Source: Syntrophobacteraceae bacterium
Lineage (GTDB): Bacteria; Desulfobacterota; Syntrophobacteria; Syntrophobacterales; Syntrophobacteraceae
Assembly: GCA_013314815.1 (NCBI GenBank)
Contig: JABUEY010000012.1
Location: 1-46,567, forward strand
Direction: 5' to 3'
Length of the DNA stretch: 46,567 bases
Shown here: one piece after another, positions 1,167 to 39,800 of the stretch
How the letters are laid out: each line of letters starts with the position of its first letter
How positions within the stretch are numbered: the first letter of the stretch is position 1
Program-made: the position numbers and the translations under genes
Notes under the pieces: generated by a model
Databases searched by the model: none
The model's input: only the letters and a program-made list of their open reading frames with translations
Told to the model about the DNA's origin: nothing

Positions 1167-1187
1167 TTTGATCATTTTTACGCAATT
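1167..1187 (+). repeat. Bipartite motif TTTGATCA-N5-ACGCAATT, internal copy 1
   Basis: An exact copy of the motif also found at 17,177-17,197 and at 25,941-25,961. It lies across the end of the frameshifted chaperone frame and the leader of the tape measure gene. All three copies share both 8-base blocks and the 5-base spacer, while the spacer sequence differs. Its role is unknown; a transposase or regulator site is possible. Confidence 0.6.
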
Positions 1188-17021: not shown

Positions 17022-17456
17022 CTACGTTCCCCCCAGCGCCGCGTCGGACTTTCGCCCCTTGCGCTCCTCGTGCTCCATCACCCGCACCAGCCCGGTGATC
17101 ACTCGGCGCGCCGAGGGAACATCCAAAAACCGCTCGTGCTCCATTTTCGTCACGCGCTTGATATATCCCCTCAAATTTTGATCATTCCAACGCAATTTCC
17201 TCTGAAGCCACTTAATCTTCCGCCACTGCTCCGGGCTGCATCCCGGCAGACAATCGTCTTTCGCGGCCGCCTTGGGCAGCAGACACATCCTGCGCCGGAC
17301 CTCCTCCAGCTCCGAGCCGCTCATGTCCGAGCAGCTCGCCTTGCCGGTCCATTCCTCCAGGCACGTGATATACTCCAGATCACTCATCCCGACGTCCTTC
17401 TTCAAAATATGAATTTGAGCCACCAGGCTTCTGCGGCTCGACTCTATACGGCCCAT
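17022..17456 (-). CDS. GemA-like protein (Mu gp16/DUF1018 family)
   Basis: A 144-residue protein, MGRIESSRRSLVAQIHILKK and so on. The family pattern is visible: IHILKKDVGMSDLEYITCLE, EEVRRRMCLLP, SPEQWRKIKWLQRKLRWNDQ and LRGYIKRVTKMEHERFLD. In Mu, GemA affects host gene expression and DNA supercoiling. The start at 17,456 has AGGGGAG 8 bases upstream; the longer frame to 17,534 would translate a palindromic repeat. The gene contains an exact copy of the TTTGATCA-N5-ACGCAATT motif. Confidence 0.8.
   Translation of the reverse strand: MGRIESSRRSLVAQIHILKKDVGMSDLEYITCLEEWTGKASCSDMSGSELEEVRRRMCLLPKAAAKDDCLPGCSPEQWRKIKWLQRKLRWNDQNLRGYIKRVTKMEHERFLDVPSARRVITGLVRVMEHEERKGRKSDAALGGT
17177..17197 (+). 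repeat. Bipartite motif TTTGATCA-N5-ACGCAATT, internal copy 2
   Basis: Lies inside the GemA-like coding region. Compared with the left-end copy at 25,941 it is identical over both blocks and extends one base outward on the left (TTTTGATCA) and two on the right (ACGCAATTTC), with a different 5-base spacer. Confidence 0.6.
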
Positions 17457-19272: not shown

Positions 19273-20163
19273 TTAGGCACCCGATGGCCTAAACATGAGG
19301 CCCAGCGCCTCTTCCACATCTCCGGAAAAGAGCCTCACCAGATCTGCAAGCTTTTCGAGGTACCGGAAGAAGCCGGCTCTCCGCGCCTGGTAAACCACCG
19401 GACCCGCCTTTTCCATCGCCTCCGGGTAGTCGTCGACCAGGCTCTTCCAGTACATGGCCAAAAAATCATCCGTCGGAGACCCAACCTGTCGCAGATAGCC
19501 TATCCGGCTGAATACGTACGTTTCCCCAGCTGCGCTCAAGGCTTTATGCAGGACAGGAAGTCCAACCAGCACCACGCCACACCCAGATTCGTACAGCTGC
19601 CGGAACACCTCCACCAGACGCAGCACGTTCCGGCGCGTTCGGTTCCCCATGAGCAGGTCGGCCTCGTCAACAATCAGGAACCGTCCCATGGCAGCCTCGC
19701 ATAGCCTGGCCATTTTGGCGTCATTGCCGCCGTCAGAGCTCAGATTCCACAGCCGGCAAAGGTCCCCGAGTAATCCACCAAGAGACTGACTCATCCTGGC
19801 CGTGTAAACGTCGGCCCCGTAACCGTGCCCATACCGGTTCACCACCCATGTCTTTCCAACCCCGGACGCCCCGACCAGTACCGCGAAATCGTGCTGTTTT
19901 CTCACCAGATCCATGAGTACCCATGCCTGCTTCTGTCCGGGCGTGATCATTGGCGCATCCTCGCGGCCACACTCAGCTCCGCCGCCTCCACTCGGCCCGA
20001 TCCTTGATTCAAGAAGGCTCCGGATCTCTTCCACCACCTCGTCTCTTCCATGGTACTTGCCGTTGATAACCTGGCTCACGGTCGCCTTGGATCTACCTGT
20101 AGCCTGTACGACCTCCGCCACGCTCATTCCGCTCGCTCTAAACAATCCAAGCATCGCCGCCAT
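19273..20163 (-). CDS. MuB-like AAA+ ATPase, target selector for transposition
   Basis: A 296-residue protein. Residues about 1-55 are a small HTH (MSVAEVVQATGRSKATVSQV), as in MuB. The ATPase core has Walker A VLVGASGVGKT at about residue 98 and Walker B FLIVDEADLLMGNRTRRNVL at about 165. A sensor-like GCGVVLVGLPVLHKAL region follows. The C-terminal helices match the part of MuB that contacts MuA. MuB coats target DNA in an ATP-dependent way, activates MuA and takes part in target immunity. The start at 20,163 follows AAAGGAGGAAGC; an upstream ATG at 20,178 overlaps the transposase stop (ATGA). Confidence 0.93.
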   Translation of the reverse strand: MAAMLGLFRASGMSVAEVVQATGRSKATVSQVINGKYHGRDEVVEEIRSLLESRIGPSGGGGAECGREDAPMITPGQKQAWVLMDLVRKQHDFAVLVGASGVGKTWVVNRYGHGYGADVYTARMSQSLGGLLGDLCRLWNLSSDGGNDAKMARLCEAAMGRFLIVDEADLLMGNRTRRNVLRLVEVFRQLYESGCGVVLVGLPVLHKALSAAGETYVFSRIGYLRQVGSPTDDFLAMYWKSLVDDYPEAMEKAGPVVYQARRAGFFRYLEKLADLVRLFSGDVEEALGLMFRPSGA

Positions 20164-20174
20164 GCTTCCTCCTT

Positions 20175-22244
20175 TCATTTGCCTGCGGTCATCGCCTCAA
20201 ACATCCGCTCAAGCTTCTTCCCGGCTTCGGCCGTCTTGGGCTTGAGCTCGCTTCTCGCCTTCGCATCATCCGCGGCCTGCTTTGCCGCACGGCTCGCGGG
20301 AACCACCCTTATCACCTCGGCCCTCCTGGCATTCGAGGCCGAGGCCTCATCGGCCTTGAGGAGACCGAATCCGTCAAAGACAGAAACCATTTGCTCCTTC
20401 CACCAGCGCCGAAGCTGCGCCTGGCGGATAAGCTTCTGCCTCAATCCCGCCGTGTCCCTGGGGTCTTGAACGTTCCACGGCTCCGCCAGGTCGATATAGG
20501 ACCCGTCGAGGTCCGTGATTATGGCTGGCGCCTCCACGTCATACGGATCCACGCTCACCTGCACCCGATCCTTCCTCCCCGACAGCAGCGGGGAGTAGTA
20601 GCATCTCCGGTCTCCCTTTCGGACCATCAGTTCGACCACGCTCTGTCGCGGAGTGCGCAGATAGCGGGGCAGGAAGAGATAGTCGAGCGTCCGGTCGTCG
20701 AACACCGGGCGGTTCTGTTCCACCAGGCCGTTGAAGAAGACCTTCTCCGGCACGATCTTTTCTATCTGCTCCTTCACCCGGCATTCCGATCGATTGTGGC
20801 TCCGGATCACATCGAAGAACGCTTCCAGGAATTCCTCGATCGAAAGGAGCTTCCCCTGCAGCCGCTCCTGTTTCAGGTGCCGGTTCCGCTCCTTGTTTAT
20901 CCAGGCGTCCGCGTCCCGCTTCCGGTACCCAGGAGTGAAACGGTTCGCCAACTCGCGCTCCAGGATGTTCATCTGGTTTTCGATCGGCTTGTTCCAAGGC
21001 ACGCCGGCCTGGGCCTTCCGGTGGGATATCTCTCCATGCAGAGTGGTCGAGCTCCCGACCATCCGGTCGCCGATGATCCCGCTTCCTCTGCCATCGCCAT
21101 TTCCTGCTTCACTAATCTCCCCGTACTTCAGCTTCCAGTCCAAGGCTCCGCCACACACCGCATACCCGGACAGCCCGGAAAGTATTTGGGCGACATGTTT
21201 CGATCCTTCCGGCTTCCCCCAGTCCGTGAAAATTTCATCGGGGATTCCCCACCGGAGAGCCTCCCGAAGACTGTGTCCGACGGTGAAGCTGTTGTAGTGG
21301 CCCATCTCCGGCCACACACCGGCCCAGTAACGGCTCGTGCAGTCCATCCAGATGTAGCACTCCGGGGTCATCGCCTCCCCGGTCTCCATGTCGAATACCT
21401 TGTAATCGAAGATGTGCTGGTCCCCGCAGAGCACCGTCATGACGGGCAGGCTCAGCCAGGAACGAACGATCTTGGGGATATAGTCTCGGTCGAAACCGAT
21501 GGTCCCGCGCCGGATTCGGTCCCACACCCCACGAGGGATCTTGCCCACCGCACGCGTGAAGTTCGTGTAATCACCGATCTCCCAGCCCCGGCGCGCGGCT
21601 TCGGCGCACAGGTCCTCGTATGCCGCTCGCTTCCCGTTGCGGATGTTCCTGGCGTACGTCATGATCCCGTAGGCCATGGCTTCCTGGTCGAATTTCCGGG
21701 TCCGCGGGATTTCCACTTTGACCAGAGGCACCCCCGCAGAACTCGATAGCTCGACCATCTGTTCGCAGGCATTTGCGATGCGCCAGCTCTCCACCTCCTC
21801 TGCCCACCGCCTGATGGTGGGATCCGACCTGCCGTATTTCGTGGCCAGCATACTCACAACCGAGCCCTTATCGCCCCAGTCCGCTTCCTCCAGGGCTCTT
21901 GCACATTCCAGTTTTGCCTGAACCTCTGGATCGGCAAGCTTTGGAGGGCTCAGCTTCTTCGCCCTAAGCCATGCCTGCATCGAATCCATGTCAGGCTCTG
22001 CGAGCTCAGGGCGAATGAGTCCAAGAGCTTCGCGAATGTCGCTAGGAAGGTCTTGGAACTCAAACGTGAGGTCCCCTCTCTTGTTCAGGGCATGGCCCTT
22101 CCAGCCTTCCTCCCTGGCGAGCCGCCTAATGTACCGCGCGCTACATCCCTTGGCTTTCGCGATCTCGCTTACCGTGTACCGCCTCACGCCCCCCCCAACA
22201 CCAGATCTAGGTCGGCATCCCAGCATGCCCCTGGCGAAAATCAC
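20175..22244 (-). CDS. MuA-like DDE transposase
   Basis: A 689-residue transposase. Residues about 20-75 are a Mu-type N-terminal HTH (RRYTVSEIAKAKGCSARYIR, then RLAREEGWKG). Two more DNA-binding regions precede the catalytic core. The core has Asp in VLCGDQHIFDYKVF (about residue 274), Asp in DEIFTDWGKPEGSKH (about 340) and Glu in KPIENQMNILERELANRF (about 421), the DDE triad order of MuA. The C-terminal third ends in basic helices expected to contact MuB. GTG 22,244 is taken as the start because AGGAGG lies 7 bases upstream and it is coupled to the Ner-like gene. It joins the phage ends to target DNA. Confidence 0.94.
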   Translation of the reverse strand: MIFARGMLGCRPRSGVGGGVRRYTVSEIAKAKGCSARYIRRLAREEGWKGHALNKRGDLTFEFQDLPSDIREALGLIRPELAEPDMDSMQAWLRAKKLSPPKLADPEVQAKLECARALEEADWGDKGSVVSMLATKYGRSDPTIRRWAEEVESWRIANACEQMVELSSSAGVPLVKVEIPRTRKFDQEAMAYGIMTYARNIRNGKRAAYEDLCAEAARRGWEIGDYTNFTRAVGKIPRGVWDRIRRGTIGFDRDYIPKIVRSWLSLPVMTVLCGDQHIFDYKVFDMETGEAMTPECYIWMDCTSRYWAGVWPEMGHYNSFTVGHSLREALRWGIPDEIFTDWGKPEGSKHVAQILSGLSGYAVCGGALDWKLKYGEISEAGNGDGRGSGIIGDRMVGSSTTLHGEISHRKAQAGVPWNKPIENQMNILERELANRFTPGYRKRDADAWINKERNRHLKQERLQGKLLSIEEFLEAFFDVIRSHNRSECRVKEQIEKIVPEKVFFNGLVEQNRPVFDDRTLDYLFLPRYLRTPRQSVVELMVRKGDRRCYYSPLLSGRKDRVQVSVDPYDVEAPAIITDLDGSYIDLAEPWNVQDPRDTAGLRQKLIRQAQLRRWWKEQMVSVFDGFGLLKADEASASNARRAEVIRVVPASRAAKQAADDAKARSELKPKTAEAGKKLERMFEAMTAGK

Positions 22245-22468
22245 ACCTCCACCTCCTCCGGAAGGCCCAGGATCTCGGTCGGACACCCCTTTTCAAGCAG
22301 GTAGCCGAGCACCCTGCGGTTATTCTTTCTCCCATGGATCGTACAGGTTACAAGAGCCCGTCCAACCCCAAGCTCCCTGGCGATCTTGGCCGGACGGTTT
22401 CCGCTCCTGATCATCCAAACCCATATTTCATCAACGTCCCTTTTCCCGGCCTTAAGCTTCACAGCCAC
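22241..22468 (-). CDS. Ner-like early regulator (HTH)
   Basis: A 75-residue DNA-binding protein with the HTH segment SGNRPAKIARELGVGRALVT, then CTIHGRKNNRRVLGYLLEKG and CPTEILGLPEEVEV. The layout (scanning helices, then a short basic loop, then a predicted final turn) is that of Ner/Nlp-type regulators, which in Mu repress the early and repressor promoters. Start GTG 22,468 is chosen because TGGAGG lies 6 bases upstream; the longer frame begins at GTG 22,495. It directly precedes the transposase. Confidence 0.75.
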   Translation of the reverse strand: MAVKLKAGKRDVDEIWVWMIRSGNRPAKIARELGVGRALVTCTIHGRKNNRRVLGYLLEKGCPTEILGLPEEVEV

Positions 22469-22801: not shown

Positions 22802-23224
22802 TCAAAGCTCCGCTTCGATCTGGCGCATTCTCTTGCGGCTCTTGCGCGCATTGTGATATTCCCTGGCCCATTCCAGGAGCTTCACATCATCGGAATCGAT
22901 CACCATTGCCCCAAGCGGCCTTACAAGAGCCTGTATTCCGCCGTTGTCTCCCACTACCGCGCAAAAAATGGGCAGTGCCTGGACGGTCGGCACATACTCA
23001 AGAGCCTTCGGGTTGAGCCATTTTTCAAACGTGTCTCGCCCGAGATCCCCGTTTCCTTTGACCAGGCGCACCCCGAAGCGTCTTGCCAGCTCATTCATGC
23101 GTTCAAGAATTTCGTCGCGGGAAAGACCGCACATCTTGGCCGAAACATTCATCGCCTCCTTGATGCCGGCGACCACATTCAGGCTCGTTGACGAAAACAT
23201 GTTGAGCTGCACCGGTCTTTTCAT
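22802..23224 (-). CDS. Early regulatory protein, CII/CP76-like
   Basis: A 140-residue protein, MKRPVQLNMFSSTSLNVVAG and so on. The middle (LSRDEILERMNELARRFGVR, GRDTFEKWLNPKALEYVPTV, then ALPIFCAVVGDNGGIQALVR) resembles phage regulatory proteins of the CII/CP76 kind, which have an N-terminal HTH and a KWxNP turn. The C-terminus is basic (NARKSRKRMRQIEAEL). GAGGG lies 7 bases before ATG 23,224; a GTG at 23,242 is the alternative. Second gene of the early operon. Confidence 0.65.
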   Translation of the reverse strand: MKRPVQLNMFSSTSLNVVAGIKEAMNVSAKMCGLSRDEILERMNELARRFGVRLVKGNGDLGRDTFEKWLNPKALEYVPTVQALPIFCAVVGDNGGIQALVRPLGAMVIDSDDVKLLEWAREYHNARKSRKRMRQIEAEL

Positions 23225-23241
23225 TGACATTCCCTCTGGCA

Positions 23242-23451
23242 CTAGACTTGTGGAACAAATCCGTACTGCTTTTGCAGCGGCCGATCAAAATTCGTTTCCC
23301 CATCTGGACTCTGGGGGAATATCTCCAAGGTGTCTATGTACGTGGTTCGATTAAGCCGACTTAGCCGATTCCTGATTGCCTTCCGGGTACCCTTGACGCA
23401 GGTGAGGGAAAAGTATCCGTAGAACGCAACAAACCTTGGCTTCCTCTTCAT
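23242..23451 (-). CDS. First gene of the early operon, basic protein of unknown function
   Basis: A 69-residue basic protein, MKRKPRFVAFYGYFSLTCVK and GTRKAIRNRLSRLNRTTYID in its first 40 residues. GGGAG precedes the ATG. It lies about 130 bases downstream of a good early promoter. No family recognised; small basic first genes of early operons often take over host or phage regulation. Confidence 0.6.
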   Translation of the reverse strand: MKRKPRFVAFYGYFSLTCVKGTRKAIRNRLSRLNRTTYIDTLEIFPQSPDGETNFDRPLQKQYGFVPQV

Positions 23452-23615: not shown

Positions 23616-23732
23616 GGTCAAAGATAGATATTTGGGTGGTTCCCAAAACAAATAATTGCCTTATGCCACCCGTTTGGAGGTTATTCTTAGTTATCTCCTG
23701 ATGTTACTGTGCTGGTTCCGCAAATTTCCTTG

Positions 23733-23773
23733 GTTCCCAATTTAGTTCCCAATTTTGTGTTCAGATTGGGAAC
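23733..23773. promoter_or_regulatory. Operator module 1, upstream of the repressor gene
   Basis: GTTCCCAAT at 23,733-23,741 and again at 23,745-23,753 (12-base step), then inverted ATTGGGAAC at 23,765-23,773, 11 bases on. Further half sites are GTTCCGCAAAT at 23,715 and GTTCCCAAAA at 23,639. It lies between the early promoter and the repressor start, as expected for repressor binding. Confidence 0.78.
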
Positions 23774-23817
23774 TAAATCTGGACTCCTTGGTTGGTCTAG
23801 ACTGGACACCCGAATAG

Positions 23818-24249
23818 ATGTTAGCCTCAAGAATGAAAACAGTCAGAGGAGACCTTCCGCAGAAAGCTTTCGCCAACCGGCTTGCTGTACACGTGAACAC
23901 TGTCCAGCGATGGGAAGCGGGCACAAGGCTTCCCTGCGCCGACGACCTACTCAGAATGCAGCAACAGTTTGACATCAACATCAACTGGCTGCTCAGCGGG
24001 GATGGTCCAAAGCATCTGAGCGAGCTGGAGCAGCCCAGGCCTGCGGAAGTGGTCCCCATCGAGAATGGCTTCATTGAGTCATTCAGGACTTGGGTGGCCG
24101 AGCTGATCAGCGAGGATTCTGCGTATAGGGGATGGTTCAAGGTCCAATTAATGAAGTGTTTCCCTGAATTTAAGGAATGGGTCGAAAAAAAACAGGGAGG
24201 GAGGTCATCTGAGAATAGTAGTCCCATGACCCACGAGAACAGCGCATAG
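23818..24249 (+). CDS. Phage repressor, XRE-type (immunity repressor)
   Basis: A 143-residue protein on the plus strand, opposite to the early operon. Residues about 6-62 are an XRE helix-turn-helix: MKTVRGDLPQKAFANRLAVH, then VNTVQRWEAGTRLPCADDLL and the INWLLSGDGP ending typical of phage repressors. The remaining 75 residues are helical (ESFRTWVAELISEDSAYRGW), probably for oligomerisation; no LexA-type protease motif is seen. It differs from the Mu c repressor, which shares its DNA-binding fold with MuA. No strong ribosome site precedes ATG 23,818; ATG 23,833 is an alternative start. Confidence 0.85.
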   Translation: MLASRMKTVRGDLPQKAFANRLAVHVNTVQRWEAGTRLPCADDLLRMQQQFDININWLLSGDGPKHLSELEQPRPAEVVPIENGFIESFRTWVAELISEDSAYRGWFKVQLMKCFPEFKEWVEKKQGGRSSENSSPMTHENSA

Positions 24250-24366
24250 GGGCGCTCTTGGTGGGAAAATTTGGTTCGTAATCGAGTTTTTCGTGTTTTT
24301 AGGCGCAGACTCTTATATATTCATGGATGTTAGCGTCTTACGCTTCCTGTTCGCAAAGATCAGGTG

Positions 24367-24407
24367 GTTCGCAATTCGGTTCGCAATCGGAGTGAAAAAT
24401 TGCGAAC
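24367..24407. promoter_or_regulatory. Operator module 2, between repressor and cargo genes
   Basis: GTTCGCAAT at 24,367-24,375 and 24,379-24,387 (12-base step), then inverted ATTGCGAAC at 24,399-24,407 after 11 bases. The spacing is identical to module 1, with the central C of the half site changed to G. One more half site, GTTCGTAAT, is at 24,274-24,282. It stands just upstream of the DUF4352 gene and probably controls the cargo genes. Confidence 0.75.
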
Positions 24408-24460
24408 CAGGTAGCAACAGAAGGATCACCTTAAACATTCATACAAAAGGAGGTATAAAA

Positions 24461-25162
24461 ATGGCTCTGTCTAAATGTCGTGAATGTGGCAATCAGGTGA
24501 GCACCGAAGCCAAGACATGCCCGCAATGCGGCGCAAAGGTCAAACGACCGATGTCCAAGACAAAGAAGATCCTCCTCGGTCTATTTGCCCTGCTGATAGT
24601 TGCAGGCATATTTGCTCCCAAGGATAAAGACTCACAACAGAAAACCACTCAGACGGCGGCAACAGCCCCAGCCGCCGCCCCAGCTCAACCACCGGGCGAA
24701 AAGCCAGAAGATTCAACTAAGTCCACCGCTCCCGTCGCCGAGAAACCATCAAAACCGATTGCTGGCGTGGGCGACGAGGTGAATGTTGGTAACTTCATCT
24801 ACAAGGTGAATGGGGTTAAATTTTCAAAATCAGTCGGCAACCAATTCGCGCAAGAAAGGGCTGATGGCATATTTCTCCTTGTTGATCTAACCATAACGAA
24901 TACATCCTCTGAAACCCGATTAATTGATAACGCCCTATTCAAGCTCCAGGACCAATCAAACGTTTCATATGAGCCCTCATCCGAAGGCTCCACGGCACTT
25001 GAACTATCTGGAGCCAAGACACTATTCTTGAAGCAATGCCAGCCCAACATCCCAACCAAGGGTGTCCTTGTATTTGAAGTCCCCAACCAGAAGGAATCCT
25101 ACACCTTGAACTTGAGTGGTGGCTTTTGGTCTGCAAAAAACGCTCATGTTAAATTGAACTAA
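24461..25162 (+). CDS. Zinc-ribbon, membrane-anchored DUF4352 protein (cargo)
   Basis: A 233-residue protein. Residues 6-23 hold a zinc ribbon (KCRECGNQVS, then TCPQCGAK); residues about 35-51 are one transmembrane helix (KILLGLFALLIVAGIFAP). About 58-100 is a Pro/Ala/Gln-rich linker. About 105-233 is a DUF4352-like Ig-fold domain (VGDEVNVGNFIYKVNGVKFS, GIFLLVDLTITNTSSETRLI, KGVLVFEVPNQKESYTLNLS). Topology: zinc ribbon in the cytoplasm, Ig domain outside. AAGGAGGT lies 6 bases before ATG. It is not a Mu core gene and lies between the repressor and the phage end, a usual place for host-altering cargo. Function unknown. Confidence 0.8.
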   Translation: MALSKCRECGNQVSTEAKTCPQCGAKVKRPMSKTKKILLGLFALLIVAGIFAPKDKDSQQKTTQTAATAPAAAPAQPPGEKPEDSTKSTAPVAEKPSKPIAGVGDEVNVGNFIYKVNGVKFSKSVGNQFAQERADGIFLLVDLTITNTSSETRLIDNALFKLQDQSNVSYEPSSEGSTALELSGAKTLFLKQCQPNIPTKGVLVFEVPNQKESYTLNLSGGFWSAKNAHVKLN

Positions 25163-25231: not shown

Positions 25232-25879
25232 ATGTCTTTCTTGTGCGCCGTTACTCCGCTCTATGGCTGGCAGGGAAGGGTGGTCCAGGTAATTGACGGC
25301 GATACCATGGTGGTCATGAAAGGCGAAGAATCCGTGAACGTTCGACTCTATGGTATCGACTGCCCTGAAGGCAATCAGGCTTCCGGTCGAGAAGCTTGGA
25401 TCTTTGCCTCAAAGCTCGCGGACGGTAACCCGGTGGAAGTTCAGCCCATCGACATCGACCGATACGGGCGAACGGTTGCCACCGTCCACGTCAACGGCCG
25501 GTCCATAAACGAAGAATTGATCAGGTCCGGCCACGCCTGGGTCTATACTCAGTATTGCACAAACGACTTCTGCCGCGACTGGCTGAAACTCCAATCCGAC
25601 TCCCAGGGCGCGAGATCCGGCTTATGGGCAGCCAAAAACCCAACCCCACCATGGGATTTCAGGCACTCCTTCAAACTCGCCCAGGCAACACCTCAATCCT
25701 CAAAACCCAAGGCTCCTCCCGCAAGCGCCGCCTCATACCACGGCAACATATCATCCCGCATCTTCCACGACTCTTCCTGTCAACACTACGACTGCAAAGC
25801 TTGCACGGCCACCTTCACCACCCGCCAACAAGCCCTCGACGCAGGCTACAGACCCTGCAAGAAGTGCGGTGCAAAATGA
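25232..25879 (+). CDS. Secreted thermonuclease (SNase family) with C-terminal zinc-binding segment
   Basis: A protein of 215 residues from ATG 25,232. The SNase core runs from about 14 to 135: VVQVIDGDTMVVMKG, VNVRLYGIDCPEGNQASGRE, IDIDRYGRTVATVHVNGRSI and EELIRSGHAWVY. The family's catalytic Arg, Glu and Arg match R38, E46 and R80, with D22 and D43 for the metal. The C-terminal 45 residues hold SSRIFHDSSCQHYDCKAC, then ALDAGYRPCKKCGAK, an Ada-like four-Cys segment found behind many bacterial SNases. The signal peptide seems to begin upstream of the ATG (frame STFGLAISLMSFLCAV); in-frame ATA or ATT codons near AAAGGA at 25,175 may be the real start. Confidence 0.85.
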   Translation: MSFLCAVTPLYGWQGRVVQVIDGDTMVVMKGEESVNVRLYGIDCPEGNQASGREAWIFASKLADGNPVEVQPIDIDRYGRTVATVHVNGRSINEELIRSGHAWVYTQYCTNDFCRDWLKLQSDSQGARSGLWAAKNPTPPWDFRHSFKLAQATPQSSKPKAPPASAASYHGNISSRIFHDSSCQHYDCKACTATFTTRQQALDAGYRPCKKCGAK

Positions 25880-25890
25880 CCCCCACCCCA

Positions 25891-25911
25891 GTTTGCAAAC
25901 AGTTTATAAAC
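25891..25911. repeat. Two adjacent 10-bp palindromes GTTTGCAAAC and GTTTATAAAC
   Basis: Perfect palindromes at 25,891-25,900 and 25,902-25,911, one turn apart, followed by AGTTCGCAC. They lie between the nuclease gene and the phage end. They resemble the GTTYAWAAAC repeats at 5,201-5,231 at the head/tail junction. Confidence 0.5.
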
Positions 25912-25940
25912 AGTTCGCACCCCAAACACCCCTCCCCACT

Positions 25941-26095
25941 TTTGATCACCAAAACGCAATTTCAACCGCAAAATCCCCACCCTCAACCCACCCACGAATT
26001 GCGTTTTGATCACACCCAAAATCCCCCAATCCCACGAATTCACACCAAATCCCGCCAAATCCCAAAACATCCCCAAAATCATCAAACCCAATGCA
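25941..26095. promoter_or_regulatory. Prophage left end with putative transposase-binding sites
   Basis: Site 1, TTTGATCA-N5-ACGCAATT, is at 25,941-25,961 (plus). Site 2, minus strand, has TGATCA and ACGCAATT two bases apart at about 25,999-26,016. Site 3, near the end, is AATCATCA-N6-ATGCAATT at about 26,078-26,098. The DNA between them is strongly C/A-biased on the plus strand, with repeated CCCAAAAT words. Mu ends carry three transposase sites each, so three related sites here fit a left end. The boundary is placed after CA at 26,094-26,095. Confidence 0.6.
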
Positions 26096-26649
26096 ATTTC
26101 CTTGCTCTCAGCCTGATGGTCGCTGCGGCACCCGCGGCAGCTGCAAAGAAGAAGGAGGGAAACAAGCCGGGCGTGGTGATGACCGAAGTGGTGGTCGTCA
26201 AGGCCTCTGTCGAAGTTGTGGACCACGAGAACCGACTTCTGACCCTGAAAGGACCCGAAGGGAATGTTGTGACTGTGAGAGTGGGCGAAGAGGTCCGCAA
26301 CTTCCACCAGATCAAAACGGGTGACGAAATCGTGGCCGAATACTTCGATTCCATAGCGGTCTATGTGGAAAAGTCAGGAAGGAAACCGGCCGCAGGCGAG
26401 CTGGACATGGTGGAAGTGGCGCCGCTGGGAGAGAAGCCCGCGGGTATCGCCGTGAGCACTTCGGAAGTCAAGGCCCTGGTGAAGGATATTGACCACAAGA
26501 AACGCACGGTTACCCTCCAGGGACCCGAAGGTAGGTCGGTTTCCCTGAAAGTGGACAAAGGGGTCAAGAACTTCGACAGAGTCAAGAAAGGCGACGAAGT
26601 CGTTGTGGTCCACACCGAAGCCGTCGCGATCGCCGTCCGAGAGCCGTAA
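26096..26649 (+). pseudogene. Host secreted two-repeat protein gene cut off by the prophage
   Basis: The frame resumes inside a signal peptide (FLALSLMVAAAPAAAAKKKE) with no upstream host start. The mature part holds two copies of a ~55-residue unit: VKASVEVVDHENRLLTLKGP with GNVVTVRVGEEVRNFHQIKT, and VKALVKDIDHKKRTVTLQGP with SVSLKVDKGVKNFDRVKKGD. Each unit resembles a small beta-barrel found in secreted bacterial proteins. The first codons must lie on the far side of the prophage, outside the window. ATG 26,116 could still start a truncated product, but without the charged n-region it would not be exported well. Confidence 0.78.
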
Positions 26650-39620: not shown

Positions 39621-39766
39621 AAAAATCCTCCTTCATTTGATGCTCACCTGGCAGACCAGATAATCTTCGACTCCACAATGCAATCCTTATCCGCAGCAAA
39701 TAACAGACTTTGAAACAAAAAGCAACCCAACAGGAGAAGGATTCTCTGATTTATAGATGGTTAAGC

Positions 39767-39800
39767 GGTCGAACCTGATCAATAATGATCAGGTTCGACC
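39767..39800. repeat. Perfect 15-bp inverted repeat (GGTCGAACCTGATCA, loop ATAA)
   Basis: Both arms are identical without mismatch and the loop is four bases. There is no T-run, so it is not a classical terminator. It lies between the dsr terminator and the OmpA-family gene and could be a transcript-end hairpin, an operator or a remnant of a mobile repeat. Confidence 0.7.

Follow-up and report, generated by a model that had tools for sequence, protein, structure and literature searches.

Immunity operators are usually viewed as evolving together with their repressor, with one set per phage. In phage Mu, the immunity region comprises the c repressor and the operators O1–O3, and the phage end lies just past the repressor gene. 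Arrays of short motifs occur with RcoLS20 of plasmid pLS20, whose operators OI and OII lie 75 bp apart around divergent promoters; this is a system of one regulator and one switch, for which DNA looping is supported by experiment (PMC4207663). ImmR of ICEBs1 has multiple sites at divergent promoters (PMC4207663). The bases of the stoperators of Cluster A mycobacteriophages differ between relatives, and the affinity of the repressor falls stepwise with changes in the site (PMC6550527).

We analyzed a stretch of 46,567 bp (the window), which is the entire contig C10 and holds most of a Mu-like prophage. The prophage extends over positions 1–26103 of C10 and positions 1 to about 10799 of a second contig, C117, which carries baseplate and tail genes and the right end; the join between the two contigs is unassembled. 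From 23242 downward, the minus strand carries Mu-like phage genes (early regulator, MuA-like, MuB-like, terminase, portal, head, and tail sheath), and they include the pair by which Mu-like transposable phages are recognized, a MuA-family transposase and a MuB-type AAA protein. The features of the region are as follows.

19273–20178, minus strand, MuB-like transposition protein (MuB-type AAA; phrog_296, E = 7.2e-33)
20175–22286, minus strand, MuA-like transposase (phrog_310, E = 1.6e-60)
22802–23242, minus strand, early transcription regulator (phrog_2345), also kept in the related phages L033 and L068
23639–23773, plus strand, module 1, five-half-site array of the GTTCC type between the early genes and the repressor
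23818–24249, plus strand, gene of the 143-aa XRE/RstR-like repressor, recognition helix at about residues 26–34
24274–24407, plus strand, module 2, five-half-site array of the GTTCG type between the repressor stop and the cargo
24461–25162, plus strand, cargo gene 1, zinc ribbon and DUF4352 protein, with the ribosome-binding site AAGGAGG just upstream
25232–25879, plus strand, cargo gene 2, staphylococcal-nuclease-like protein with a C-terminal Cys motif
25940–26103, minus strand, phage left end, terminus AAGGAAATTGCAT at 26103 with TGATCA/ACGCAA sites, laid out as in L033 and L068

The locus resembles Mu in its MuA/MuB-type genes, in the divergence of the repressor gene (plus strand) from the minus-strand early genes, and in the multi-site operator between them. 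Unlike Mu, it has an XRE repressor with five repeated half-sites, and the stretch from the repressor to the left end contains a second complete array; furthermore, the deduced target duplication appears to be 4 bp rather than the 5 bp of Mu, and the ends are 5'-AAG rather than 5'-TG. The structure model of the repressor was confident for the HTH and poor for the C-terminal half. The nearest solved relative of this HTH was ICEBs1 ImmR (7t8i), which is likewise a related HTH protein with multiple sites at divergent promoters, but the similarity is weak (E = 0.002) and the element is a different one. We know of no second array in ICEBs1.

Two 41-bp modules with the same geometry had been described in the initial annotation, and both were found, at 23733–23773 and 24367–24407, together with the extra half-sites reported at 23639 (GTTCCCAAA), 23715 (GTTCCGCAAA), and 24274 (GTTCGTAAT). 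A half-site at 24349 (GTTCGCAAA) had been overlooked; with it the two modules are equivalent, each being an array of five half-sites in which A, B, C, and D are direct and E is inverted.

23639–23647, plus strand, module 1 half-site A, GTTCCCAAA
23715–23724, plus strand, module 1 half-site B, GTTCCGCAAA
23733–23741, plus strand, module 1 half-site C, GTTCCCAAT
23745–23753, plus strand, module 1 half-site D, GTTCCCAAT
23765–23773, minus strand, module 1 half-site E, inverted
24274–24282, plus strand, module 2 half-site A, GTTCGTAAT
24349–24357, plus strand, module 2 half-site B, GTTCGCAAA
24367–24375, plus strand, module 2 half-site C, GTTCGCAAT
24379–24387, plus strand, module 2 half-site D, GTTCGCAAT
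24399–24407, minus strand, module 2 half-site E, inverted

The half-sites start at 23639, 23715, 23733, 23745, and 23769 (inverted) in module 1 and at 24274, 24349, 24367, 24379, and 24403 (inverted) in module 2. Counted from C, the geometry is thus −94, −18, 0, +12, and +36 in module 1 and −93, −18, 0, +12, and +36 in module 2. The reported difference in the half-site base extends to every site, with GTTCC in 5/5 half-sites of module 1 and GTTCG in 5/5 of module 2. The prophage therefore carries two complete arrays of near-identical layout with different half-sites, and this arrangement suggests that its passenger genes have a control signal of their own.

We examined how unusual these arrays are. 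Single half-sites were not enriched in the window (19 with at most one mismatch, against 23 expected), whereas four-site arrays occurred twice in the window and in none of 100 shuffles. When any 5-mer was allowed, modules 1 and 2 were the sole arrays on both strands of the window, and 200 random windows gave none. The array pattern matched only modules 1 and 2 in the 4.06-Mb host assembly. In a scan of viral contigs, 12 of the 13 matches were chance or coding sequence, and apart from the one real match, in the L033 contig, these contigs held no other array of either the GTTCC or the GTTCG kind. The sites share with stoperators the repetition of an asymmetric site and bases that vary between heteroimmune relatives. 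Stoperators, however, are dispersed over the genome as single sites that all have one specificity, whereas the sites here occurred only as two ordered arrays with two half-site types in one phage. The locus is also similar to that of RcoLS20 in having an HTH regulator, arrays of short motifs in mixed orientation, and two operator parts at a comparable distance: A and B are 74–76 bp apart in the window and L033 and 71 bp apart in L068, and the parts in pLS20 are 75 bp apart. It differs from pLS20 in having two switches with different half-site bases. To our knowledge, two full arrays of different specificity within one element are known neither in pLS20 nor in Cluster A mycobacteriophages.

Modules 1 and 2 were identical at 31/41 positions inside the half-sites and at 36/109 positions outside them, the latter being near the level of unrelated sequences. 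A change from C to G in all five half-sites with spacers at background is expected if the sites, and not the spacers, are selected. The retention of the half-sites beside diverged spacers suggests that module 2 is in use now or was so recently. The same observation bears on the possibility that module 2 is a functionless relic, namely, an operator that belonged to an earlier immunity region and stayed in place when the repressor region was exchanged. Recombination does exchange phage immunity regions, and such a history would account for the lack of a remaining cognate repressor, as cargo would have taken the place of the repressor once present downstream. The nearly perfect half-sites, set against the diverged spacers, suggest continuing selection instead, and the gene that immediately follows the array has a good ribosome-binding site; we consider a relic quite unlikely.

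The layout was compared with those of two relatives, L033 and L068, whose transposases are 76% and 58% identical, respectively, to that of the window. L033 has one array between the repressor and the early genes (−92, −18, 0, +13, and +37) with the half-site GTTCC, and it lacks both module 2 and cargo in the stretch from the repressor to the left end. Its repressor is 49% identical to the 143-aa repressor and shares the recognition helix VHVNT[V/I]QRWEAG. With regard to L068, one array is present in the same place (−92, −21, 0, +12, and +36) with the half-site GGTTAATG; random five-site layouts came as near to the template as that of L068 once in 400,000. The L068 repressor has 262 aa and a peptidase S24 domain, and thus its class is unlike that of the window repressor. 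Two genes lie between this repressor and the left end, one of which begins with a similar zinc ribbon. A repressor gene divergent from the early genes with repeated sites between them was found in the window, L033, and L068. The array spacing, whose loss in close relatives the initial annotation had regarded as counter-evidence, was retained in both.

Since the arrays of L033 and L068 lie at the same place, and that of L068 does so with a different half-site and an S24-type repressor, we regard the layout as the operator plan of this phage family, known in these two relatives. Judged from the three phages, the geometry of the module 1-type operator is more conserved than its bases or the class of its repressor; the array layout has persisted even though both the half-site and the class of repressor have changed. 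We searched 395 genomes of the phylum, an annotated phage collection, and genome contigs for the transposase without finding another close relative; a scan with the left-end pattern matched only L033 and L068; and no such array was found in L066, a more distant repressor relative, or in phage Fc02. As had been proposed, module 1 sits at the repressor/early region, with the repressor gene on one side and the divergent early genes on the other. Because the single arrays of L033 and L068 lie between repressor and early genes, module 1 is, on comparative grounds, the resident immunity operator of the Mu-like prophage.

The position of module 2 was judged from the ends of the phage. The left-end signature AAGGAAATTGCAT is common to the window (from 26103), L033, and L068, and ACGCAA occurs at +99 in all three. 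The right end on C117 bears TGATCA-N5/6-ACGCAA sites, of which the 4.06-Mb assembly has five copies, all in the prophage and none in host DNA; one copy lies at 25943–25959 of the window. The host flanks of C117 and C10, when joined in silico, encode an intact signal-peptide gene (MKKKWALMLALSLMVAAAPAAAAKKKEGN...), and the join implies GCTC as a 4-bp target duplication; homologues of the interrupted host gene are present in relatives. The ends deduced from these junctions are 5'-AAG[G/T]AAATTGC (window 26103 and L048 10799). End sites at both termini and a short target duplication, as expected of a Mu-like phage, were therefore found. As the left end lies at about 26103, beyond the zinc-ribbon/DUF4352 and nuclease genes, module 2 heads phage cargo and is not a terminus. 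This agrees with the earlier placement of the module before cargo genes, which lie inside the prophage. The genes share with repressor-controlled cargo (moron) genes a location inside the phage (left end, 26103) and, ahead of them, an operator built like that of the phage itself (24274–24407).

We had also considered module 2 as a transposase-bound terminus (TGGTTCGCAATT..., ending at 24409), in which case the "cargo" would be host DNA. The sequence at 24409 starts with 5'-TG, and a position just past the repressor gene is that of the Mu end. The signature shared with L033 and L068 is nevertheless at 26103, the right end on C117 has the same end sites and the host flanks rejoin into one intact gene, and no GGTAG duplication was found beside a TGGTTCGC-like end. 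This candidate was rejected on the basis of the left-end signature and the host gene rejoined across C10 and C117, and we assign it almost no credence.

Several further observations were made on these contigs. Two internal TGATCA-N5-ACGCAA copies (window 1169–1185 and 17179–17195) lie within phage coding regions and could be internal transposase sites; the remaining TGATCA/ACGCAA copies genome-wide are all at phage ends. Genome-wide, TGGTTCGCAAT occurs exactly once more, within a Lon-protease-like gene (C50); we took this match as chance. The tail-end protein at L048 9515–10582 has an FGE-sulfatase domain, and its C-terminus (FRGGNWYRG...SVRSGVHSAVGFRPAFVI) resembles the targets of diversity-generating retroelements. 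The host DNA at window 39764–39797 contains the inverted repeat CGAACCTGATCA-ATAA-TGATCAGGTTCG.

For the function of module 2, we favour the reading that it controls the cargo and has a specificity of its own, with little or no binding by the resident repressor, so that the cargo is on in the lysogen (probability about 0.45). In this model, the resident XRE repressor would bind the five GTTCC half-sites of module 1, shut off the early promoter, and also control its own gene through module 1. Module 2, a further full array built in the same way, would have entered between the repressor and the left end together with the cargo cassette; its half-sites would have changed to GTTCG in concert, and it would now control the cargo genes. 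It would properly be read by a repressor of different specificity, for instance one from a heteroimmune phage of the family, with weak or no binding by the resident repressor. In the lysogen the cargo would then be expressed, and its repression would require the other regulator. We infer from the sequence that module 2 has cargo promoter activity, that a protein binds it, and that this binding affects the cargo.

The specificity of module 2 is probably different because the half-site of L033, whose repressor carries the matching recognition helix, is GTTCC as in module 1; the concerted change from GTTCC to GTTCG suggests that the regulator is another one or acts more weakly. The same comparison weighs against the earlier proposal that the single 143-aa repressor gates both modules. 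The repressor might bind module 1 tightly and module 2 less so, and the cargo would then be turned on at a smaller drop in repressor than the lytic genes. A search of the host genome gave neither a GTTCG-type repressor, which counts against the favoured reading, nor a second close repressor of the 143-aa type, only three distant XRE proteins; both arrays retain TGGTTC and CAAT, and a mismatch of one base could be made up for by cooperativity among the five sites. The mismatch, however, is present in 5/5 sites, and the base concerned is the same in module 1 and L033, whose repressors share the recognition helix; random decay would not alter five sites alike. Control of both modules by one repressor is possible but, in our judgment, somewhat unlikely.

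Promoter matches in module 2 were weak, which likewise weighs against the favoured reading, and a stricter scan of the module gave none. The best promoter-like match, TTGCGA-18-TAACAT, is leftward and overlaps half-site B; it is a consensus match only, scoring 8.7 where the background 90th percentile is 6.6. If this were a promoter, the unbound module could yield an RNA antisense to the repressor gene, and the switch would act on the level of repressor and not on the cargo. Given the outcome of the stricter scan, we hold such a role to be very improbable.

The favoured assignment of module 2 to another regulator can be extended, although we regard the extension as doubtful, to a phage family that holds the operator geometry fixed while swapping the half-site "word" together with its repressor, with the cargo, placed behind a second array with another word, reporting whether a heteroimmune repressor is present in or absent from the cell as a form of cross-phage signalling. 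If the geometry is the conserved part, unknown immunity specificities of phages could be found and decoded from sequence, and the arrays would provide a natural test case for the origin of a new specificity, namely, by duplication of an array followed by a change of all sites together.

Two observations concern the surroundings of the cargo. The AT-rich palindrome AACAGTTTATAAACTGTT, or a close form of it, occurs at window 25898–25918 and at L068 904–925, 1887–1912, and 2938–2965. In L068 it precedes both cargo genes, and in L068 as well as the window it stands at the edge of the cargo that faces the left end; it is perhaps another cargo operator or a cassette boundary. In the unrelated Paenibacillus phage Paisley (L084 2881–4360), a DUF4352 protein similar to that of cargo gene 1 adjoins a transcriptional regulator near a recombinase, a neighbourhood that fits a role in lysogens.
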